DNA of 64,000 bases from positions 1 to 64,000 of the forward strand of contig JAOAIJ010000012.1 in NCBI GenBank assembly GCA_026414765.1. The letters are read 5' to 3'. Position 1 is the first letter of the stretch. Each line of letters begins with the position of its first letter. The notes beneath the pieces were generated by a model that had not been told where the DNA came from, ran no database searches, and worked only from the letters and a program-made list of their open reading frames with translations. Source of the stretch: Clostridia bacterium. Lineage in GTDB: Bacteria; Bacillota; Clostridia; Acetivibrionales; DSM-27016. Positions 29,468 to 40,141 of this stretch are shown here, piece after piece. The translations under genes and the position numbers were made by a program.

Positions 29468-29683
29468 CTATATTTCTATATATTCTTCATAGTTAAGGCC
29501 GTTTGATTTACAAAAGCGAATTGTTGCGCCTACTATTTTCTTTCCGCCTCCTATACCACTGTTGATGAAACGATGTAAGTGAGAAGGGTCAACGTCCAGT
29601 TCACGAGCAAATCTATTATAGTTTCCTGAGAAATATGTTTCCATCAATTCTGCAAGCTTTTGTCTTTTAACTACCACTTTCAT
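29468..29683 (-). CDS. small helix-turn-helix DNA-binding protein
   Basis: 71 residues, one Cro/XRE-like helix-turn-helix (NRFARELDVDPSHLHRFINSG). The ATG at 29683 is very close to its GAGGCGGG; the GTG four codons on gives better spacing. Phage-repressor-like size but no phage genes nearby. It lies 64 bases behind the gene at 29748 on the same strand. Confidence 0.8.
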   Translation of the reverse strand: MKVVVKRQKLAELMETYFSGNYNRFARELDVDPSHLHRFINSGIGGGKKIVGATIRFCKSNGLNYEEYIEI

Positions 29684-29747
29684 CCCGCCTCTCTAAAGAT
29701 CTGATTATGTATTTTGAATAAACGTATTGGTATCGGATTTTATTGAA

Positions 29748-30125
29748 TTAAGCTGTTTTCATCTTGAGGGCTATGCTCTTACCGGGTCTGAACTCTTCGC
29801 AGCATTTGCATTTTATCTTATAATTAGTACCGAAAGTTGACGGTTCCAATATAAGAGATATGTTGCTTTCGAATTTGTGTCCATCATTGCCGTATTGTTC
29901 GAAAACCATGCTTACAAGCCCGTTTTCGATTATTTCATCATTGGTATAACTATTAAGGATTATTCGTGTCTGATTGTTTTCAGAATACTCGCATTCATGA
30001 TTTCTCATCCAGTCAAGAAATGAACGAATCTCATACTCATGGATGGAAAAAACCATAGGATATGCCTTGAGCATGTCCACGTTATTACTTTTGCCTAAAG
30101 CGCCTATTAACCATCTTATAAACAT
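29748..30125 (-). CDS. hypothetical protein
   Basis: 125 residues, soluble, with a C-terminal CKCCEEFRPG cysteine cluster that could bind a metal. AAGGAAGG lies nine bases before the ATG. Probably cotranscribed with the small regulator at 29468. No family recognised. Confidence 0.75.
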   Translation of the reverse strand: MFIRWLIGALGKSNNVDMLKAYPMVFSIHEYEIRSFLDWMRNHECEYSENNQTRIILNSYTNDEIIENGLVSMVFEQYGNDGHKFESNISLILEPSTFGTNYKIKCKCCEEFRPGKSIALKMKTA

Positions 30126-30476
30126 TTCTATCCAACCTTCCTTATAACCGGATTAGCTTTATTATGAACACTTGAGCGACACTTGATTACGCTGCGTAAA
30201 CCATGATATACACCAAAATAAAATACTATCAAAGTTCGTATATGGTACAATAAAAATCAAGATATGTGGTATATCAAAGAGAATTTTCTACATAACTAAA
30301 TGTCTTTGAAAATTTATAGTATAATGATAACGTACATGTTAATATTACCATTTTGTAACAATAGTGTCAATCATAAATTACAAATTAATTAATTTTGTTC
30401 TACAAAATATACAAATTTATCAAAAACTACTATGAAATATTTTCTAAACTTGATATAATATGACGGGGGGGATGAA
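30126..30476. other. AT-rich divergent promoter region
   Basis: Holds the starts of the minus-strand pair and of the XRE regulator. A clear TATAAT at 30454-30459 sits 18 bases before the XRE start, giving a very short leader. No ORF. Confidence 0.45.
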
Positions 30477-31130
30477 ATGACTAGGTTGGGTGAGTTAATA
30501 AAAAGCAAAAGGGAAAGTAGTGGTCTCTCACTTAGGGACTTTTCCGAGAGATGTACATTAAGCCATTCATATATTAAGAACCTCGAGGATGGAGACCCTA
30601 GGACGGGTAAAAACATAATACCTACCATTGATTCCCTTGAAAAGATTGCTCCTGCTTTGGAAATGTCCTTGGAGGAACTGCTAAAAAGAATAGGATATAT
30701 CAGTGACAGTCCGGGTAAGTTTGAACGATCAAACCTTAAGCTCATTAGAGGAAGCAAATCCTTTGAAGAAATATGCAAGGAGATAGCTTCAAAAACTGGA
30801 AGCAAGATAAACTCTTCCATATATGAGGCAATAGAAGGAGGAAAGGATAAAAATCCCTCACTTCTTTTCATAGATACTCTTGCAAAGTATGCAGGGGTTG
30901 ACCGTTCATTCTTCTATAGGGAAAATACTGAAAAAGCATACGAGGAAGCCAAAGAACGCAGCCCATACTATTCCCAAAACGAGAAAAGCTCGTTATCCCA
31001 TATCAAGGATAAGGATCTTCTGAACTTTATTAACAGCCCCGAGAGTGCAGAATACTTGCAGTTGGCTAAAGACCTGTATGAAAGAAAGATAAAAGTCAAG
31101 TTTATAAGAAGTACATTCTTTCAAGAATAA
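30477..31130 (+). CDS. XRE-family regulator with two helix-turn-helix-like regions
   Basis: 217 residues. The first XRE domain (1-70) reads LGELIKSKRESSGLSLRDFS and SHSYIKNLEDG. A second, degenerate one spans about 85-150 (EEICKEIASKTG, FIDTLAKYAGVDRSFFY). The remainder is charged and helical with no effector domain that I recognise. GGGGGGG precedes the ATG; a terminator-like hairpin follows. Duplicated XRE domains of this type occur in clostridial stress or sporulation regulators, but no target can be named. Confidence 0.85.
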   Translation: MTRLGELIKSKRESSGLSLRDFSERCTLSHSYIKNLEDGDPRTGKNIIPTIDSLEKIAPALEMSLEELLKRIGYISDSPGKFERSNLKLIRGSKSFEEICKEIASKTGSKINSSIYEAIEGGKDKNPSLLFIDTLAKYAGVDRSFFYRENTEKAYEEAKERSPYYSQNEKSSLSHIKDKDLLNFINSPESAEYLQLAKDLYERKIKVKFIRSTFFQE

Positions 31131-31148
31131 AAAGATAGTAAAGTTATG

Positions 31149-31186
31149 AACAAGCTGGTGTCATCATATGACAGCAGCTTGTTTTG
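31149..31186 (+). terminator. intrinsic terminator after the XRE gene
   Basis: AACAAGCTGGTGTCAT pairs with ATGACAGCAGCTTGTT (one mismatch), then TTG. Confidence 0.75.
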
Positions 31187-31844
31187 TGCCTTGACATAAT
31201 TGAAATAATAAAAATAATTCTTTAATTGTAAGTGAGCCGGGCAGTGTACCGGAGTTGCAGCAACGATGGCTTTTTACCTGTGAATACCTGCTGAACAGGC
31301 AGTCAACAGACAAAATAGCAGTCATAGTTAATAGCGGCCAGCAGGTTTGCGTCTCCATGCAAGCATAAGATCCGCATTAACAATGCCGCCGGTATTTGGA
31401 CACTGGCAACTATTAACTACGATGAACATCCCGTAAAAAAGTTGTAATAAGAGAAATCATAGGGATGATTAATGTTATAAATTTTGAATCCCGTATTGTT
31501 ATAATACTTAATATTACATTAGGGAGGTCTGAACGTTTTTGCGAATGGTTCGACAGAAAAGAAAGATGGCTTTCCTGCTATGTATGGCCGTTCTTAACTG
31601 CTTCTAAACGCTATTTTGCATCTCCATCTATGAATTCCATTACTAGGTAAATTTAGCTTTGTTCATCTAAAAAACTCTTGAAAATTCAACATAAATAATT
31701 CCTCTTTAAAATATAATCTACTCTTATGCTGTGCCATTTATATAGTGGTACAGCAAGGGATATATAAATTTTAAAATCTTTTCCAGTTACGCAGATTTGC
31801 TTCTTTATGGTACTGTCGGGACTGACGGGGCTACCGTTTGTTTA
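31187..31844. other. gene-poor stretch with probable decayed coding remnants
   Basis: No complete gene. Open frames without starts carry protein-like sequence, e.g. plus strand near 31230-31370 (VPELQQRWLFTCEYLLNRQ) ending at TAA, and 31750-31929 (SYADLLLYGTVGTDGATV) ending at TAG. Such headless frames suggest degraded genes at the left edge of the AT-rich island. I cannot name their origin. Confidence 0.35.
31539..31607 (+). CDS. possible 22-residue signal-peptide-like ORF or truncated gene start
   Basis: TTG start after GGGAGG, reading MVRQKRKMAFLLCMAVLNC then Phe and stop: a basic N-terminus plus hydrophobic core like a signal or lipoprotein leader without a mature part. Probably the head of a gene lost by decay; a functional micropeptide is possible. 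Confidence 0.3.
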   Translation: MRMVRQKRKMAFLLCMAVLNCF

Positions 31845-31873
31845 TTGACAAGCTATCTTATCGGATGTAAAAT
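31845..31873 (+). promoter_or_regulatory. sigma-A-type promoter upstream of the neopullulanase gene
   Basis: TTGACA (31845-31850), 17-base spacer, TAAAAT (31868-31873), 190 bases before the TTG start at 32062. Confidence 0.6.
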
Positions 31874-32061
31874 AAAAGGAGAACATGTAAAATTATCCAA
31901 TATTGGCTATGAATTTACTATAATGTAGTTGCGACACAGTAGTTCAAATAACGGCATTAAAATTATAACTGAGCACGCGAGCTTTGCGAAAGAATTCAAT
32001 TGGATTCACAAAGAAATATGAAAAATTGTTTTTTATGATTATGTAAAGGGAGGAATTATAC

Positions 32062-33810
32062 TTGAACAAGCATGCAGTATACCACAGAGCAAATAGTAAT
32101 TACGCTTTTGCAATTGATGAAAAAACATTGGCCATTAGGCTTAGAACAGCTAGTAAGGATATTGACGAAGTTAAAATGCATTATGGGAAATGTTGGGCAA
32201 ATGTTGATGGCAGATGGGTATGGAGAAAGGAAAAAATAGATTTAAAGATTGAGTACGAAACTGATTTATATACTTATTGGAGAATAGATATTAGTCCAAA
32301 AAATTACACACTAAAATATGGCTTTGAGTTAATAAAAGGCCAAGAGAGGTTAATGTACTTAGAAAGAGGATTTTTTAGTGTGGATGATGTATCTATTGAA
32401 AATGATATAAACAGCTATTTTAATTTTGCGTATATTAACAATGCAGATGTCTTTAGATCGCCCTCCTGGGTAGAAGATACTGTTTGGTACCAGATTTTTG
32501 TAGATAGATTTTGCAATGGAGATAAGAGTAATGATCCTGAAAATGTGCATGAATGGGAAGAAAAAATATTAGGACCTTATGAATTCTACGGTGGAGATTT
32601 GGCGGGAATAATACAAAAGTTGGATCACCTAAAAGATTTGGGAATTACCGGTTTATATTTATCACCTATATTCCAGTCACCTTCAAGCCACAAATATGAT
32701 ACTACGGATTACTTTGAAATTGATCCCCACTATGGAACTAAAGAAGAGTTTAGGACTTTAGTTAAAGAAGCCCATTCAAGAAATATTAAAATTATGTTAG
32801 ATGCTGTTTTCAACCACATTGGTGCAAGTTCTATACAATTTAAGGATGTTATTGAAAAGGGAGAGAATTCAGCATACTATAATTGGTTTTATATTAATAA
32901 ATGGCCTGTAACTGATGACCAAGGTAATCTTATAGGTGAGAATTATAGGAACTTCTGTGCAGAAATGCCTAAATTAAATACCGAAAATGAAGAAGTAATA
33001 CAGCACATGCTTAAAGTATCTAGGTATTGGATTGAAGAATTTGATATTGATGGTTGGAGGTTAGATGCTGCTAATGAGGTTGACCATGAGTTTTGGAGAA
33101 AATTTAGAAACACTGTAAAAGCATGTAAAAAAGATATATATATATTAGCAGAAATATGGTATGATGCTTATAATTGGCTGCAAGGAGATCAATTTGATGC
33201 AACTACCAATTATCCACAAACAAAGCCTATTTTAGAATGGGTAGCCTGCCGAAGTATTAATGCTCTGGATTTTCAGAGAACATATATAGAGGCACTGTTA
33301 AGATATAGCGATAATGTGAATAAAACTATGTTTAACTTATTAGATAGCCACGACACTGCCAGATTATTCACTTTTGCAAAGGAAAATATTAATTTATTAG
33401 AAATTTGCTATGTACTTTTATATACACTACCTGGAACACCTTGTATTTTTTATGGTTCCGAGTACGCAATTGCAGGAGAACATGACCCATACTGCAGAGT
33501 ACCAATGCCTTGGGAAAACGAAAAACCAGAATTTTTTGAAACACTGAAAAAGCTCATAAGCTTAAGAAAAGAATATAAAGCCTTAGGTGGAAAAACCGAA
33601 TTTATTATGGTGAAAGAGGAAGAGATTATTATGAAAAAAGTAAGAGCTGCAGAAGAGATATATTTAATAATCAATCTATCAAATTCAGAGAAGAGCTACG
33701 ATCTTTCGCCTTATTTTAAGGCTACTGAAACGTTTAAGTTGATGGATGGAAAGAGTGTTAATGTAACTAATATCTCTGTAAAATCAGAAGGTTTTGTACT
33801 TTTAAAATAA
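32062..33810 (+). CDS. GH13 neopullulanase/cyclomaltodextrinase-type alpha-glucosidic hydrolase
   Basis: 582 residues from TTG (GGGAGGAA eight bases upstream). No signal peptide, so cytosolic. The N-terminal CBM34-like domain (1-120) is typical of maltogenic amylase, neopullulanase and cyclomaltodextrinase. Catalytic barrel: nucleophile D335 (DGWRLDAANEV), acid/base E364 (ILAEIWYDA), D431 (DSHDTARL). It hydrolyses imported maltodextrins, cyclodextrins or pullulan; the subtype cannot be fixed by eye. The codon use is markedly more AT-rich than for the amylase at 5450, and the gene opens the AT-rich island, suggesting separate ancestry. The next gene starts 87 bases downstream. Confidence 0.92.
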   Translation: MNKHAVYHRANSNYAFAIDEKTLAIRLRTASKDIDEVKMHYGKCWANVDGRWVWRKEKIDLKIEYETDLYTYWRIDISPKNYTLKYGFELIKGQERLMYLERGFFSVDDVSIENDINSYFNFAYINNADVFRSPSWVEDTVWYQIFVDRFCNGDKSNDPENVHEWEEKILGPYEFYGGDLAGIIQKLDHLKDLGITGLYLSPIFQSPSSHKYDTTDYFEIDPHYGTKEEFRTLVKEAHSRNIKIMLDAVFNHIGASSIQFKDVIEKGENSAYYNWFYINKWPVTDDQGNLIGENYRNFCAEMPKLNTENEEVIQHMLKVSRYWIEEFDIDGWRLDAANEVDHEFWRKFRNTVKACKKDIYILAEIWYDAYNWLQGDQFDATTNYPQTKPILEWVACRSINALDFQRTYIEALLRYSDNVNKTMFNLLDSHDTARLFTFAKENINLLEICYVLLYTLPGTPCIFYGSEYAIAGEHDPYCRVPMPWENEKPEFFETLKKLISLRKEYKALGGKTEFIMVKEEEIIMKKVRAAEEIYLIINLSNSEKSYDLSPYFKATETFKLMDGKSVNVTNISVKSEGFVLLK

Positions 33811-33897
33811 TGAGCAGTGTAAAAACACTAAAAAATTCTTGATCTCTTTCATTTTGCTATTAGGTAAGCATAATTAATTAGAAAGGAACAGTGAAAT

Positions 33898-35448
33898 ATG
33901 TATAAAAACATAATTGATTTACATACACAGGAATTAGTTAATAAAATTAGAGATGACATCTATAGCTTCAAATCAAAAGATATTAATAATTTTATTTACT
34001 TTAAAATTGAAAACAAAAGCTTTTTATTGGATTCGTTTCATAGACTTGCTGTAAAAATTCCTCAAGAGATGGAGCTTCTTTTGCCTCAATATTTCAGCCA
34101 TGAAGATACTGACTCATCAGACTTAGATTCAGTGATATGTGAAATTCTAAATAAAACTAATGAAAAAGAACTTCTGTCATTGTGTGAGAATTTTAAGCAT
34201 TCTAGAGATGTTGTTCACAAGAAAATAACCTCGCTAAAAGAAAATCTAAATAATTCTACTTCTTTAGAAGCTAGTGAGACAATTGTTTCGTTTTTAGGCA
34301 AACGTCAATGTAACCTTAGGTGCAGATATTGCTTTGTTGAAAAAGATAAGGAAAACAATATTGATATTCAGGATGGTGATCTATCTGAAGAAATTATTAA
34401 AACTGCATTAGATTTTACATTGGAAAACAGCAAAAACACTCTTTTTATAAGAATCGACTATTCTCTTGGCGGGGAAGTCTTACTAGACTTTGAAAATTTT
34501 AAAAAGATACTTCCAATTTTAAATTCATACAAGAATGATATTGAAGACCAGAAAGACGTAGTAATAGGATTCCTTACAAACGGTACACTTCTTAATGATG
34601 AAATAATTGAATGGTTAAATAAAAACCATAATCAAATTGGATTTAGCTTAGATGGCTGCAAGGAAGTTAATGATAGCATGCGAAAATTTGAGGATGGAAA
34701 AGGTTCATACGATGAAGCCATAGGTAATATTAAAAAAATTATAAATCTTAATTGGAGATTTGCACCCGGAGTTAGTTCGGTTTTAACTGCAAAAAATCCC
34801 GACATTTTAAAAAACTTCCTTGATCTTTGGGATATAGGATTTAGAGTTATTATAACCAAGCCGGTTAGATCTAGTGAAGATAATGATTTTTCTATATCAA
34901 ATAACATGGATAAAATAAAAGCTTCATATACCAACTTTGCAAACTTTTTAATTGAAAACTGTAAAAAAGGTAATTTTGAATACTTAAAGGCAATTTTATA
35001 TCCCATTGATTTCTTCGGCAGGTTCTTAATCAGGATATTTATAAGAGATAAAATATTTATCAAAAGATGTGCAGCTGGCAAAAAAATATTTAGCATTAGA
35101 AATAATGGTGACATTTACCCTTGTGACAGTTTTAATGGCATGGGAATGCATTTGCTTGGCAATATAAACAACAGATCTATCGATGACACAACATTCAGGA
35201 TTCCATTTGTAGATGAAATTGAAAAGTGTTCTAATTGCTGGGCCAGGTACTTATGTGGTGGACCATGTGCATATACCCAAACAATCAACGGTGGAGACAG
35301 AATTATAGAGTCTGAATGTGAACTTACAAAATTTATATTAATGTTATCTTGCTATCTGTGGAGTGAAGTCAAATCAGTTTCCTCAGAAGAAGAACTGAAG
35401 GACTTAAATGATTTTATATCACTTGTAACCCATGCAACTAGTTGGTAA
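33898..35448 (+). CDS. radical SAM/SPASM peptide-maturase-like protein
   Basis: 516 residues. An unusual N-terminal region (1-130) could include a precursor-recognition module. The radical SAM cluster motif is C138-x3-C142-x2-C145 (CNLRCRYC). The SPASM domain is complete: C391-x12-G-x4-C409, then C444-x2-C447-x5-C453-x3-C457 and C474, the canonical seven-Cys pattern that binds two auxiliary iron-sulfur clusters. Relatives install thioether, C-C or other links in peptides, or mature sulfatases. A 26-codon gene follows 35 bases downstream and an MFS exporter next, with no sulfatase in the window, which favours peptide (RiPP) modification. Very AT-rich. Confidence 0.9.
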   Translation: MYKNIIDLHTQELVNKIRDDIYSFKSKDINNFIYFKIENKSFLLDSFHRLAVKIPQEMELLLPQYFSHEDTDSSDLDSVICEILNKTNEKELLSLCENFKHSRDVVHKKITSLKENLNNSTSLEASETIVSFLGKRQCNLRCRYCFVEKDKENNIDIQDGDLSEEIIKTALDFTLENSKNTLFIRIDYSLGGEVLLDFENFKKILPILNSYKNDIEDQKDVVIGFLTNGTLLNDEIIEWLNKNHNQIGFSLDGCKEVNDSMRKFEDGKGSYDEAIGNIKKIINLNWRFAPGVSSVLTAKNPDILKNFLDLWDIGFRVIITKPVRSSEDNDFSISNNMDKIKASYTNFANFLIENCKKGNFEYLKAILYPIDFFGRFLIRIFIRDKIFIKRCAAGKKIFSIRNNGDIYPCDSFNGMGMHLLGNINNRSIDDTTFRIPFVDEIEKCSNCWARYLCGGPCAYTQTINGGDRIIESECELTKFILMLSCYLWSEVKSVSSEEELKDLNDFISLVTHATSW

Positions 35449-35483
35449 TTTCCCTAAATATCATTTGAAAGGATGTGAATAGA

Positions 35484-35564
35484 ATGTCAAATATCGTTAC
35501 ATTTAGTGAATACCTTTGTCTACTAAATGAGGAAGAAGACATATTAGCAATCGCAGTGTGCTAA
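35484..35564 (+). CDS. 26-residue peptide, candidate RiPP precursor
   Basis: ATG preceded by GAAAGGATGTG at correct distance, 35 bases after the SPASM maturase. The product begins MSNIVTFSEYLCLL, has an acidic middle (NEEED) and ends AIAVC, with Cys at 12 and as the last residue (26). Length, acidic leader-like part and terminal Cys fit a substrate of the maturase. A 15-bp hairpin follows, which would favour high expression of the short gene over the transporter. It matches no precursor family that I can recall. Alternatives: a signalling peptide or a chance ORF. Confidence 0.65.
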   Translation: MSNIVTFSEYLCLLNEEEDILAIAVC

Positions 35565-35581
35565 TTATCCGGTAATTGTTG

Positions 35582-35616
35582 TTGAAGAAGCTTGACACAA
35601 AGTCAAGCTTCTTCAA
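35582..35616 (+). terminator. 15-bp perfect hairpin between precursor and exporter
   Basis: TTGAAGAAGCTTGAC (35582-35596) is the reverse complement of 35602-35616, five-base loop. No T run follows, so partial terminator or mRNA-end stabiliser. Confidence 0.7.
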
Positions 35617-35622
35617 AGGTTA

Positions 35623-35651
35623 TTGACAATTTGTCAAAAATGACTTATGTT
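35623..35651 (+). promoter_or_regulatory. promoter with overlapping dyad before the MFS gene
   Basis: TTGACA (35623-35628), 17-base spacer, TATGTT (35646-35651). The -35 box is half of the inverted repeat TTGACA-ATT-TGTCAA (35623-35637), a candidate operator, suggesting the exporter is regulated separately. Confidence 0.55.
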
Positions 35652-35691
35652 ATGTGGCACCATCTAAAATTTCAGTAGAGGAGAGTTTTAT

Positions 35692-36894
35692 TTGAAGAGA
35701 TTAAGAAATACTAAAATCATTTTTTTTATATGTTTATTTTTAAACCTAAATTTAATCATGTCTGTTCAAGCTGTATATTTGAAGACTTTAGGAATCTCCG
35801 CATCATTTATATCTATGCTATACGTTATTTCTCCAATATTCGGCGCAGCTCTTGAAGTACCTACAGGAGTTTTAGGTGATTACATTGGACGAAAAAAAAC
35901 TCTTATTTTATGTGGATTTTGTTTTAGTGCATCAGCTTTACTATACCTTTTAGGAAAATCGCCCATTCATTTCCTAATGGTGGTTTTTCTGGAAGCATTG
36001 GGATGGAGCTTGTTTTCTGGCAATACAGAGGCTATTGTTGTGGAGGATTCACTAGCTAAAAAAACAGATATAAGCAAACAAATTGCTTTTTTTTATACTG
36101 GTCTCCCTTTAGGTGCAGCAATAGCAGGCTTCTTAAATACAGGGGTATCAATATATCTAGGTAATATTAACTTTAAAGTAATAATTCTATTATCTGTAGT
36201 AACAAAACTTATTGCATTAGCCTTAACTTTTTTTGTTAATGTTACTCCTTCTCAAATAGAGAAATCTAATAAATCCAACCCGTTTAAAGTTCTTGCAGAT
36301 AGTATTTCATTAATAAGACGTGACTTTTTTTCATTGACTATGATAGTATATGAAGCTTCTGGAAGACTAGTCTTTTACTTGCCAATAATTATACAAATGC
36401 TCTTGCTGAAAAATGATGTGGATCTTAAATACTTTGGATTTCTCATAGCAACTACCCTGGTAATATCCACAGTGTTTCAAAACTTTTCTCATATAATAAT
36501 TGAAAAGCTTAGTATTGAATTTATACTCAAAATTTCCCCTTTTGGTTTTGCAATTGGCCTGGCAATACTTTTAATCCCCAATCCAGTTGCAACTATCGCT
36601 GGTATGATTATGGTAGAAATAATCTCGCCACTTAGAGGACAATGTTTGGGAATACAGAGAAATAGAGTTGTCGAAAATAGCTATAGGGCTACGTATATAT
36701 CTTGTTTATCCTTGCTGGTATCATTAGTTAACACCGTGTTTCTTATGATTGCAGGATTCTTTCTAGAATACTCTATTCAATTAGCTGTTGGTTTTCTTTT
36801 ATTAATTTGCTTAATTGGCGGTCTTTCTACTGTAAGATTTATTACAAATATACCAAATGAAGTTAAGAATGAAGAACAAAAACAGGTTGTGTAG
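35692..36894 (+). CDS. MFS transporter, probable exporter
   Basis: 400 residues with about 12 membrane helices and the MFS loop 2-3 motif (GDYIGRKKTL). TTG start after GAGGAGAG. Closest in style to drug-efflux-type MFS proteins. Position behind a maturase and short peptide suggests export of, or self-protection from, the peptide product; sugar export linked to the GH13 gene is less likely. Same AT-rich composition as the three genes before it. Confidence 0.88.
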   Translation: MKRLRNTKIIFFICLFLNLNLIMSVQAVYLKTLGISASFISMLYVISPIFGAALEVPTGVLGDYIGRKKTLILCGFCFSASALLYLLGKSPIHFLMVVFLEALGWSLFSGNTEAIVVEDSLAKKTDISKQIAFFYTGLPLGAAIAGFLNTGVSIYLGNINFKVIILLSVVTKLIALALTFFVNVTPSQIEKSNKSNPFKVLADSISLIRRDFFSLTMIVYEASGRLVFYLPIIIQMLLLKNDVDLKYFGFLIATTLVISTVFQNFSHIIIEKLSIEFILKISPFGFAIGLAILLIPNPVATIAGMIMVEIISPLRGQCLGIQRNRVVENSYRATYISCLSLLVSLVNTVFLMIAGFFLEYSIQLAVGFLLLICLIGGLSTVRFITNIPNEVKNEEQKQVV

Positions 36895-37032
36895 TAAAAT
36901 TGGGAATGGCCATAGTACTTACCTGTGGTCATCCCTATGATCCTGCCTGTATCCTCCTGAAATAATCTTGTATTAACCACTTCAAGCAATATTTAGCAAT
37001 GCAAGTACTACACTTAATTTAGTATACATAGA

Positions 37033-37060
37033 AAAAGAACACGGTACATACCGTGTTCTT
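37033..37060 (-). terminator. intrinsic terminator of the AgrD-like operon
   Basis: AAGAACACGGTA/TACCGTGTTCTT hairpin; on the minus strand TTTTTC follows. Confidence 0.88.
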
Positions 37061-37074
37061 CAATCGGGCGGGGA

Positions 37075-37197
37075 TTAAGGCTTCAAACATTTGGGTTCCT
37101 TAGGTTGATACCAAAAGAAGTAAGATGCGCTAGAAGCAGCTAACATAGCACATATAGCTGCTAAACCTGCTAAGAGTCTGAGAATTTTTTGCTTCAT
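37075..37197 (-). CDS. agrD: AgrD-like cyclic autoinducer peptide precursor
   Basis: 40 residues. GGGGGATG lies nine bases before the ATG. Architecture of AgrD: an amphipathic, hydrophobic leader (MKQKILRLLAGLAAI), a core near 22-29 (SSASYFFW), and the conserved acidic-Pro tail YQPKEPKCLKP. Clostridial AgrD proteins have the same tail (xQPxEPKxL). By alignment the ring residue is S25 instead of Cys, predicting a five-residue lactone S-Y-F-F-W rather than a thiolactone; Ser-type lactones are known in a few staphylococci. The product should be a secreted quorum signal after processing by AgrB, which is not encoded in the window. Second gene of an operon with a membrane protein 36 bases upstream. 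Confidence 0.82.
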   Translation of the reverse strand: MKQKILRLLAGLAAICAMLAASSASYFFWYQPKEPKCLKP

Positions 37198-37233
37198 TGT
37201 AAACATCCCCCTACCTAAATATATTAAGTTTTT

Positions 37234-38052
37234 CTATTGGTGCTCATCATCATAATAGCCTCGTTCTCGTAAAGTTATGTCTATTAATTCTGCTGCGTAA
37301 TCAGCATTGCCGTCTATAATTAGTTGTTTTAAATGATGTAACTCTATATCATGAATATTTTCTTTCATAGAAATTTTCTGTCTGAGGTTGAAAATATAAC
37401 TTATAAGCCAGAAAGAAAAGCTAATAAGTAAAACTGCATTTACGGCAATTAATAATATTGAAGATGCAGAAAAATCTCTAACATATGTTCCTTTTTCATC
37501 AATTAAGAGTATATTTCCTGTAATTATTATTAGATAAACAATCATTATTATTAAGTCTGGCAAGAATAATTTATTCTCTCTTACATTTACCTTTTTTACT
37601 TTCAAAACAATTACTATAGAGGCGATTTGAAATATTCTATCTGGTAAGGAAAAAATAAATTTATAAAGAACATGATTGTAAACATCGTTATATGTAAAAC
37701 CACTTAATTTTATAAGGATTGGATAAAACAAGAACTCACTTGCCATTACAACTAAGGATGATAGAAAAAAGCCAAAAAATAATGAAAAAGGTTTTTGTTT
37801 AAATACTAGTGTCATTATTACATAAAATAATAATGTATTAAGTATAAAACGGAAGGAAAATGTAAAGAAAACATTTACAGTTAACGACGAAATAACCATT
37901 AATATGGCGCATAAAAAAATTCTAAGTATATTGTTCCTATTCTTAAAACTCAATAAGTCCTTATTTCCTGATACTATTAAAGTAGTAATTACTGTTAAGA
38001 GTTCCTCTGGAAAACTTACAAACAGTGCAGAAGTAACTAGTGTTTGAAGCAT
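37234..38052 (-). CDS. polytopic membrane protein, AgrC-sensor-like without kinase
   Basis: 272 residues from ATG at 38052 (GAGGAAGG upstream; a longer in-frame start lacks a ribosome site). Six to seven membrane helices, then a short cytosolic tail with helical segments (KENIHDIELHHLKQLIIDG, ELIDITLRERGYY). Size and topology match the sensor half of AgrC-type kinases, but there is no phospho-acceptor HDxxN motif and no ATPase domain, and only 36 bases separate it from the AgrD-like gene, so nothing is hidden by a frameshift. It also lacks the AgrB His/Cys protease motif. Possible roles: signal receptor acting through a partner, or a new processing/immunity component. AT-rich. Confidence 0.75.
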   Translation of the reverse strand: MLQTLVTSALFVSFPEELLTVITTLIVSGNKDLLSFKNRNNILRIFLCAILMVISSLTVNVFFTFSFRFILNTLLFYVIMTLVFKQKPFSLFFGFFLSSLVVMASEFLFYPILIKLSGFTYNDVYNHVLYKFIFSLPDRIFQIASIVIVLKVKKVNVRENKLFLPDLIIMIVYLIIITGNILLIDEKGTYVRDFSASSILLIAVNAVLLISFSFWLISYIFNLRQKISMKENIHDIELHHLKQLIIDGNADYAAELIDITLRERGYYDDEHQ

Positions 38053-38121
38053 TGTATCCACACCTTCCTCACATAAAATACAATCATTCCGCAACAGAAT
38101 GTTGCTTGTCTATAAATGAAT

Positions 38122-38150
38122 AAAACTGCTCTGGACAAAGCAGTTTTTAT
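38122..38150 (-). promoter_or_regulatory. terminator-like leader hairpin, candidate attenuator
   Basis: AAAACTGCT/AGCAGTTTT with an eight-base loop and T run on both strands, inside the predicted leader of the AgrD-like operon (start near 38168, gene at 38052). No gene ends nearby, so it is not an ordinary 3' terminator. Confidence 0.5.
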
Positions 38151-38174
38151 ATAGTAATTTTTTTCCTTATACTT

Positions 38175-38203
38175 ATATTACAATAAAATTACAAAAATGT
38201 AAA
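38175..38203 (-). promoter_or_regulatory. sigma-A-type promoter of the AgrD-like operon
   Basis: On the minus strand TTTACA (38203-38198), 17-base spacer, TAATAT (38180-38175). Confidence 0.6.
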
Positions 38204-38329
38204 CACGTATTCCGAGAATTTCCCATAAATATATAATATTATACAAAAAACTGTCCGCTATTATATGATATAATCTATAAATAGTTTTGGAGATATCTTA
38301 TTTTTCATATATTCTAAGGGGAGCGAAAC

Positions 38330-39193
38330 ATGAGAAAAGGGAGTTTTAGCAGAATAATGCTTTGTTTATTTATCATATCGGCACTGTCTGCTGGCTGCGG
38401 AAGTGAAAGGCAGGTAGAAAACCGTAAAAACGTGCTTGTGAATAAAACGGGAAATAATAGTGTGGACGCGGCTTCTCAGGGTAATGCAAAAAAAAACGGC
38501 ACAACGCACGCCGGGGATAAAAAGAATAGTGCCGGATCAGAGATTAAGGCTAAAAGCCTGCTTGCGGGCAGGACCATTTGCATAGATCCCGGGCACCAGT
38601 TGAAGGGGAACAGCGGGCAAGAACCGATTGCGCCAGGCAGCAATATTATGAAGGACAAAACAACTTCCGGAACATCCGGGGTTGTGACAAAAATTCCCGA
38701 ATACGAGCTGAATCTGCATATTTCACTGCTGATAAAGAAGAAGCTGGAGGAGCATGGGGCAAGGGTCATAATGACCCGCGAAACAAATAATGTAAATATC
38801 AGCAATATAAACAGGGCGAAGATGGCAAACAAGAGCAATGCCGGACTGGCCGTAAGGATTCACGCAGACGGGGCTGCTGACAGTAAAATAAGAGGGGCAT
38901 CGGTGCTCTATCCCGGGGGAAAGTATATTAAGGACGGCGACATGCTGAAAAAGAGCAAGATCGCTGCGAAAAAAGTAACCGAGAGCATTAGGAAGAATTC
39001 GGCTGCAGTATCTGTGAAATCGGTGGAGAGGAATGATCTGACGGGATTTAACTGGTCTGAGGTTCCTGTTATACTGGTTGAAGTCGGGTTTATGTCAAAC
39101 CCTGCTGAAGACAGGTTGATGAAAACAAAGAAATACCGTGAGAATATGGCAGAGGCAGTGGTACTCGGTATTGTAGAATATTTTAAGAGTTGA
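38330..39193 (+). CDS. N-acetylmuramoyl-L-alanine amidase lipoprotein (Amidase_3)
   Basis: 287 residues. Lipoprotein signal with lipobox LSAGC (C23), a Lys/Asn-rich linker to about residue 75, then an Amidase_3 zinc domain: first His in CIDPGHQ, Glu in PEYELNLHI, second His in VRIHADG and catalytic Glu in VEVGFMSNPAED. It cleaves the amide between MurNAc and the stem peptide. AGGGGAGCG precedes the ATG. A GerMN lipoprotein follows 126 bases later; both could act on the spore or cell envelope. Confidence 0.93.
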   Translation: MRKGSFSRIMLCLFIISALSAGCGSERQVENRKNVLVNKTGNNSVDAASQGNAKKNGTTHAGDKKNSAGSEIKAKSLLAGRTICIDPGHQLKGNSGQEPIAPGSNIMKDKTTSGTSGVVTKIPEYELNLHISLLIKKKLEEHGARVIMTRETNNVNISNINRAKMANKSNAGLAVRIHADGAADSKIRGASVLYPGGKYIKDGDMLKKSKIAAKKVTESIRKNSAAVSVKSVERNDLTGFNWSEVPVILVEVGFMSNPAEDRLMKTKKYRENMAEAVVLGIVEYFKS

Positions 39194-39319
39194 CTTTCAT
39201 GATGTGATTATACAATACATGGTCACTATGGGACAAAAATTTATTTGACTTTAGAATACTGGAAGCGTTGCTGGCATAAGAATATCGTATAAAAGATTTT
39301 ATTGTGAGGTGGCCAGATA

Positions 39320-40141
39320 ATGCGAAAGGTTGTAAGTATTGCTGTTGTATGTTTTATGATAATTACTGTATTTTCAGGATGCGCTATACTACAAAAGCTC
39401 GGATTGCAGGAGAGCGATAATGATGAACTTCGCCCGGTAAGCAGTATTGCTATAGGCGAGGATGAAGCAAAAAAACTTAGTGATAATACTCAGATACGCC
39501 TTTACTTTGCCAATGCGGAAAATAAGAAGCTTAAGTTGGAAATAAGGTATATTCCAATGAGCGAAGCAAAGAAAAGTGTAAGCAACCTGGCAAACGTGAT
39601 AGTAACCGAGCTCATAAACGGACCAAGCAAGGATAGCGGACTGAAAGCCACAGTTCCGAAGGAAGCTAAGCTTGCTTCAAAGGTAAAGGTAGATACCGAA
39701 ACAGCAACAGCAACTGTTGATTTCAATAATGATTTTATTAGTAAGCATCCCGGAGGCAAAGATGCAGAAAGGCTTACTATTTATTCCATAGTTAATTCGC
39801 TTACCGAATTGAAGGAAATTCAAAAAGTAAGATTTACCATTAACGGAAAGAAAACAAAGGAGTTCAAGGGTAATTTCCAGTTCGACGTCCCGTTCCCAAG
39901 GACAGAATCTTTAATAAGCAGGGAAATAGCCACTCCAAGCTCTGTTACAACAACTGATGCGAAAGATATAAAAAAGGATGGTACAGAAAAAGACACAAAG
40001 AAAACAGATGAAAAGAAAAAGGATGACAAGAAGGATGGAACAAAAACCGGGGACAGTGAAGAAATGCTGGAGGATGACGCAAGCGGCGCTTTTGGGGATG
40101 AAGATGTTATAGAGCAGCTCGATGGCGAACCCCTTGAATAA
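39320..40141 (+). CDS. GerMN-domain lipoprotein
   Basis: 273 residues. Lipobox VFSGC (C21). A GerMN domain spans about 45-190 (IRLYFANAENKKL, IVTELINGPSKDSGLKATVP, TATVDFNNDF), as found in the sporulation/germination protein GerM. The C-terminal 70 residues are low-complexity Lys/Asp then acidic. Secreted, membrane-anchored; role in spore envelope assembly is inferred from the family. Terminator follows. Confidence 0.9.
   Translation: MRKVVSIAVVCFMIITVFSGCAILQKLGLQESDNDELRPVSSIAIGEDEAKKLSDNTQIRLYFANAENKKLKLEIRYIPMSEAKKSVSNLANVIVTELINGPSKDSGLKATVPKEAKLASKVKVDTETATATVDFNNDFISKHPGGKDAERLTIYSIVNSLTELKEIQKVRFTINGKKTKEFKGNFQFDVPFPRTESLISREIATPSSVTTTDAKDIKKDGTEKDTKKTDEKKKDDKKDGTKTGDSEEMLEDDASGAFGDEDVIEQLDGEPLE

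Follow-up and report, generated by a model that had tools for sequence, protein, structure and literature searches.

The window, that is the whole stretch of DNA analysed, comprises 64,000 nucleotides of contig JAOAIJ010000012.1. Two adjacent open reading frames were found on the minus strand at the place given by the original prediction; the first encodes the 272-residue membrane protein P0002 (37237-38052, stop codon 37234-37236), a kinase-less AgrC-type receptor candidate whose receptor function is inferred, and the second, separated from it by the claimed 36 bases to the peptide ATG, encodes the 40-residue AgrD-family precursor peptide P0001 (37078-37197, stop codon 37075-37077). On the same strand a promoter-like site, TTTACA-17-TAATAT (38175-38203, a consensus match only), and two hairpins within the putative leader of the receptor gene (38085-38147) were identified, as was a terminator-like hairpin 3' of the peptide gene (37034-37061). 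As the last hairpin comes after the peptide gene, a two-gene operon is plausible from the sequence, there being no transcription data. Hairpins similar to those of the leader occur in the related genomes G022 and G030; the first is terminator-like and, by eye, at least one paired base change is preserved as a pair. A search of positions 29500-39500 against Rfam gave no match at E≤0.5.

Farther to the left lies the gene of a 217-residue XRE-family regulator with a SinR-like HTH (30477-31130, plus strand), our proposed output partner, separated from the receptor-agrD pair by amylase-like (by eye), radical SAM/SPASM and MFS genes (32062-36894, plus strand), a block not found at that place in the three relatives G012, G022 and G030. 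Two synteny markers delimit the region: a 125-residue ORF on the left (29748-30125, minus strand), a homologue of which adjoins the XRE gene in G022 and G030, and a 273-residue ORF on the right (39320-40141, plus strand), a homologue of which lies past the receptor gene in G012 and G022. The radical SAM/SPASM protein (33898-35448, plus strand), whose gene is followed by the MFS gene, resembles SCIFF-type peptide maturases at 193.9 bits, under the cut-off of 425.

P0001 matched the NCBIfam AgrD model TIGR04223 (E 1.5e-11, 44.1 bits, curated cut-off 19) and by this profile it is a member of the AgrD family, as had been proposed. The residue at the ring position is S25, encoded by the TCT codon at 37125-37123, followed by the Y-F-F-W core and by YQPKEPK, so that the predicted Ser, SYFFW core and QPKEPK tail were all recovered and the AgrD pattern (Cys/Ser ring, four core residues, Y/H-Q-P-x-x-P tail) is met as S25-YFFW-YQPKEP. 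The predicted mature core, S25-Y-F-F-W29 (37111-37125, minus strand; numbered as in the published C. thermocellum AIP), presupposes a maturation that is inferred. For the predicted product, a lactone from Ser25 O to Trp29 C=O, the calculated cyclic [M+H]+ is 731.319; a Ser ring is chemically plausible and formation of the lactone in the source organism is inferred.

A Ser-lactone AIP is already known from C. thermocellum. According to PMC5322536, Clo1313_2818 yields an AgrD-type cyclic pentapeptide with a Ser25-F29 lactone, verified by LC-MS/MS comparison with a synthetic peptide; its leader is cut at A24/S25, Y30 and P35 are also numbered, and growth was slowed by the cyclic form and unaffected by the linear one. 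The paper found no AgrB, AgrC or AgrA candidate, and the gene lies in no apparent agr operon (PMC5322536). As far as the residues numbered there allow comparison, A24, S25, Y30 and P35 are common to both peptides and residue 29 is Trp in P0001; P0001 (core SYFFW) adjoins a kinase-less receptor, whereas for Clo1313_2818 the paper reports no AgrB, AgrC or AgrA candidate.

P0002 is composed of a membrane domain and, after it, a short tail on the cytoplasmic side that resembles a DHp hairpin. Alignment of a family profile of residues 1-269 with seven fused AgrC-type kinases by hhalign gave a probability of 99.6% (E 5e-24), and the membrane part by itself gave 99.5%, while the controls yielded 1.1% for AgrB and at most 0.2% for five column shuffles; the DHp hairpin of the family by itself was a weak match (35.5%). 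Of the 97 receptors described below, 75 are contained in alignment A3, and the AgrB control alignment comprises 44 of 45 sequences. N232 occupies the phosphoacceptor His column, in which none of the 75 aligned receptors has a His (seven are gapped there). Pfam returned no match for P0002 at E≤1, including PF04647 (AgrB peptidase), and no HATPase domain is present, the protein ending at residue 272. The NCBIfam search gave only a weak match to staphylococcal AgrC (E 0.003), neither Pfam nor NCBIfam provided a confident model for P0002 or 24 relatives, and no PDB sequence matched the receptor profile below E 0.15.

On these profile comparisons P0002 is homologous along its length to the membrane sensor domain of the AgrC receptor histidine kinases, from which it differs in having neither the HATPase domain nor the phosphoacceptor His, and the sensor without kinase anticipated by the original prediction was thus supported. 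Judged by the absence of these two elements, P0002 is not AgrC as a kinase, though homologous to its sensor half, and cannot signal by phosphorylation. The possibility that it is an AgrB-type protease, which would have refuted the prediction, was rejected from the profile probabilities (1.1% against 99.6%) and the missing PF04647 match. A phage or plasmid origin was likewise set aside, the 272-residue sequence giving no tblastn match at E≤0.01 in phage and plasmid collections. A scan of named genomes found two loci in Clostridiaceae MAGs and no others.

Within the order, the receptor profile matched 44 of 58 genomes. Five rows were omitted before counting (three F5/8-FN3-like proteins and two fragments), nine ORFs of ≥400 aa and five of <200 aa were left out, and the remaining 97 kinase-less receptors were spread over 42 genomes. 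An AgrD-like ORF on the same strand was found just 3' of 91 of the 97, the span searched beginning 200 bp before the end of each profile match and stopping 400 bp past it; that of L194, about 630 bp past the match end, was not counted as paired. Among all small ORFs of the 97 loci, 96 matched the AgrD model at E≤1, 91 being the paired downstream ORFs; of the 22 peptides behind the model, 19 came out of the cassettes themselves. Sequence comparison shows a recurrent pair, and the pair in the window is no isolated case. It could still be conceived as a functionless, decayed remnant of an agr locus, in keeping with the absence of agrB, kinase and response regulator, but both ORFs are intact, five kinase-less receptors were among the matches listed for this genome alone, and each of the 42 receptor genomes carries at least one receptor paired with an AgrD-like ORF; we regard decay as hardly credible.

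All 89 motif-scored paired AgrD-like ORFs have Cys or Ser as ring residue (Cys in 52, Ser in 37, with two of the 91 unscored). Ser for Cys is common in these cassettes, and a sequencing error at S25 among homologues that all carry Cys, which would have undone the Ser claim, can be dismissed because 37 of the 91 have Ser. A parsimony count required 25 changes between Cys and Ser, of which well supported branches force 18-19; it used a single quick tree of 92 receptors, after the removal of five rows of the 97 as divergent or truncated and with the ring states of L184, L194 and L235 assigned by eye. When ring labels were shuffled the mean rose to 29.5-30.4. The cassettes form a natural data set of many Cys/Ser ring switches.

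The prediction had correctly noted that no agrB adjoins the peptide gene. PF04647 matched two AgrB proteins in the same genome, on contigs C17 and C47 and none on the contig of the window, so that agrB does exist elsewhere. The accompanying statement that agrB normally sits in this position did not hold for the order, where only 20 of the 97 receptors have agrB within 3 kb; agrB is usually located outside the receptor-AgrD cassette and a separate solo agrB exists. The C47 gene is an agrBD-type copy accompanied by a full AgrC and a LytTR-like ORF. The C17 AgrB (134.8 bits) has a nadA-like ORF on one side and, on the other, a 5S rRNA at the end of the contig. A nadA-like ORF is next to AgrB in 14 of the 16 loci inspected, and rRNA was present in four of five loci scanned. 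In L132, L135, L136 and L139, from different families of the order, the stand-alone agrB adjoins rRNA genes and in three of them the nadA-like ORF is also beside it. The sequences thus reveal a conserved solo AgrB, and among AgrB rows unlinked to a receptor, 23 of 26 had no AgrD-like ORF in the surrounding DNA examined.

The AgrB tree of 45 rows, which carries a long-branch warning, placed the C17 copy in a 36-row group (support 80/97) of 23 solo and 13 receptor-linked sequences, the other six of the 19 receptor-linked AgrBs falling outside, and the three agrBD-type rows including C47 formed a separate group (support 99/97). No AgrB was matched in the receptor genomes G014, G050 and G057, all of which are drafts. 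We consider the solo agrB, mostly adjoining the nadA-like ORF, the likely maturase of the AgrD peptides; that it acts in trans is inferred.

The usual absence of AgrB from the cassette also admits a different role for P0002, namely that it is no receptor and helps to make the signal by cleaving the leader of its own AgrD, exporting it or cyclising it. Its own AgrD is nearly always encoded alongside and some members have no cytoplasmic tail, both of which speak for this reading. The homology is to the sensor half of AgrC and not to AgrB, however; among the alignment columns filled in P0002 no conserved catalytic His or Cys was found (maxima His 15/75, Cys 10/75), so no protease site is visible, and 20 receptors do have agrB within 3 kb. 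We hold a role in signal production to be quite unlikely and retain P0002 as a putative receptor.

In a scan of 398 genomes of the phylum, the family profile matched 96, the ORFs concerned being mostly about 440-500 aa or 150-210 aa long. Outside the order a separate kinase gene of 280-304 aa often comes after the sensor domain. When a strict motif test was applied to 29 loci there, six were fused kinases, 11 were pairs of a short sensor and a separate kinase and 12 remained unclassified, the latter including L074 (fused by eye), several loci with an ORF of 280-304 aa at the kinase position, and L051, where a tandem pair of kinase-less receptors is accompanied by an AgrD-like ORF. From the split pairs it might be argued that P0002 signals through a histidine kinase encoded elsewhere, in a mixed dimer like the split AgrC pairs of other Firmicutes. 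The genome does contain an orphan 296-aa GHKL kinase on contig C24 with a response-regulator-like gene nearby, and the receptor neighbours include two clusters of five ORFs each (by eye), one of response-regulator-like proteins and one of HAMP-type membrane proteins. The C24 kinase, however, adjoins fibronectin-III-like proteins and no receptor, and the largest cluster of receptor-neighbour ORFs is XRE (68 ORFs, 36 genomes). A separate kinase is in our judgement unlikely, though not to be dismissed lightly, and we continue with the reading that the receptor acts without a kinase and through an XRE regulator.

Of the 97 receptors, 56 have an XRE ORF no more than 600 bp away, over 36 genomes, and matches were concentrated next to the receptors, with 29 in each of the nearest 500-bp bins and 0-5 in each farther bin. 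This linkage of kinase-less receptors to XRE genes is a new observation, of which the original prediction made no mention. It follows two main arrangements with several subtypes and, mapped on the receptor tree, appears or disappears 15 times; the XRE model was built out of ORFs surrounding receptors, and many linked loci share synteny and are not independent. The remaining 41 receptors have no XRE ORF within 600 bp, and within the genome of the window the C52 receptor is the only copy with an adjacent XRE. A whole clade of 18 receptors, including L238 of G045, has no nearby XRE, and our confidence in an XRE output is lowered for that reason. Alternatively, the XRE genes might only regulate the cassette.

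In the nearest relatives of the window receptor an XRE of 216-227 aa is convergent with the receptor gene. The corresponding search of the genome identified the window XRE (30477-31130) at E 5.4e-96, the second best being 3.8e-24, about 6 kb from the receptor-agrD pair. The window locus has both flanks in common with G022 and G012, the left gene being a different one in the case of G012, and the left flank in common with G030, which indicates that the amylase-like, radical SAM and MFS genes sit inside what is a single locus in these relatives. From this gene order the window XRE is the syntenic counterpart of the convergent XRE of the relatives.

The HTH of the window XRE was recognised by PF12844 (42.0 bits, cut-off 30.2) and PF01381 (32.6 bits, cut-off 23), meeting the HTH_3/HTH_19 criterion. 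Compared with PDB sequences, the XRE profile A5 came closest to the HTH region of SinR of Bacillus (1b0n, E 8.7e-8), from which the window XRE differs in its length of 217 aa, with a long C-terminal part outside the match. Many receptor-adjacent XREs have a C-terminal motif in common, which to us looks SinI-like; neither the window XRE nor any of six related XREs had a SinI match in Pfam, and a SinI-like C-terminus was left without support from that database.

Upstream of the XRE gene in L174, L177, L179 and L191 a palindrome, TGTAAA-N5-GTTTACA, occurs once each and is a possible autoregulatory operator. It was found in 19 of 292 loci, all from the four relatives G012, G022, G030 and G033. The palindrome is absent from the window, where its longer form had no match at ≤3 mismatches, and an operator common to the relatives and the window was rejected.

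The C-terminal tail module of P0002 (37255-37416, minus strand) is common to the paralogues on C18 and C43 and to three F5/8-FN3-like single-TM proteins. At E better than 1e-17 this tail was detected in eight of the 58 genomes, with G045 giving a further match at E 0.02, and the window type of XRE was detected at E below 1e-90 in the same eight, the next best being 3.2e-40. The co-occurrence is partly circular because both profiles drew seeds from five of the eight genomes; neither profile has a seed from G005 or G028, and the window XRE did not serve as one either. The tail is carried in G005, G019 and G028 by an F5/8-FN3-like protein of 554-560 aa whose gene is convergent with an XRE of the window type at gaps of 55, 121 and 280 bp, and the XRE so placed in G019 is 56% identical to that of the window. 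No AgrD-model match better than E 0.05 was found beside these three proteins. The occurrence of the tail on an unrelated ectodomain next to the same XRE type is the best hint, at the level of sequence, that tail and XRE may be a functional pair. The tail is absent from eight of the 75 aligned receptors, with an XRE nearby in five of these eight and in 40 of the 67 tailed ones; the tail therefore cannot be the XRE contact in every member.

P0002 could also be a silent decoy or insulator, which binds its own peptide or blocks a full AgrC through mixed dimers and has no output; the tail-less members and the many receptors without a nearby XRE speak for this. P0002 has no catalytic part, and its tail resembles the AgrC dimerisation hairpin, albeit weakly when that hairpin is compared alone. 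Such a role is nevertheless at odds with the recurrent XRE gene within 600 bp and with the presence of the tail on an unrelated ectodomain beside the same XRE type, both of which suggest an output; moreover, no full-length kinase with a P0002-type sensor domain was among the matches listed for the genome (E≤1e-6). A silent role is decidedly unlikely in our opinion.

The reading we prefer, with an output through the XRE regulator at 30477-31130, is that the pair represents a single module within a branched, kinase-free Agr network. The 40-residue AgrD would probably be exported, trimmed and cyclised to the five-residue lactone S-Y-F-F-W without a tail, the maturation step being performed by the stand-alone AgrB of contig C17. 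The lactone would be sensed by the neighbouring 272-residue AgrC-type membrane receptor, which would control the SinR-like XRE, the simplest mechanism being that it binds or releases this regulator at the membrane. Neither biochemical nor expression data are available for lactone formation, the action of AgrB in trans, ligand binding, the contact between receptor and XRE or the XRE targets, all of which are inferences, and we propose this scheme tentatively, as one that may prove wrong slightly sooner than right. The wider proposition, that AgrC-derived receptors without a phosphorelay pass a (thio)lactone signal to a dedicated SinR-like XRE by direct membrane contact and that the peptides of many scattered modules share one solo AgrB as their maturase, is put forward as a possibility about which we have considerable doubt. 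If the XRE part is true, a kinase-free output would join a textbook quorum-sensing family.

In the Rap-Phr modules of Bacillus, many peptide-receptor pairs per genome depend on common processing machinery, the Rap receptors being cytosolic and the Phr peptide re-imported. The receptor-AgrD cassettes are alike in the many pairs per genome and the proposed shared processing, and differ in that the proposed P0002 receptor is in the membrane. No kinase-less AgrC and no XRE partner of AgrD was indicated among the papers listed in the literature searches, most subscription journals lying outside them; AgrD and 'XRE family' co-occur as terms in two staphylococcal transcriptome papers.

In genome G045 an agrD gene lies about 0.1 kb after the kinase-less receptor L238, with no XRE within 600 bp, and its peptide (core SFFIF) agrees with Clo1313_2818 in all five residues numbered in the published account. 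The link between the two rests on these numbered residues alone, without the Clo1313_2818 sequence. We take G045 to be C. thermocellum. Similar cassettes in related bacteria may help to explain a known orphan peptide signal, and candidate receptor and maturase genes for the orphan AIP of this biofuel model organism (PMC5322536) make it a testable question.

Two further loci of the genome that holds the window were recorded. At G000:C24:48695-53186 (L133) the orphan GHKL kinase gene is followed by two fibronectin-III-like genes and a response-regulator-like gene. At G000:C19:28710-29294 (L044, L131) a 194-aa ORF consists of a truncated receptor-like start fused in frame to an AgrD-like tail (..SMLWLYQPKEPKSIRKFS), and it sits between XhlA-like and amidase-like ORFs (by eye), like a prophage lysis cassette.
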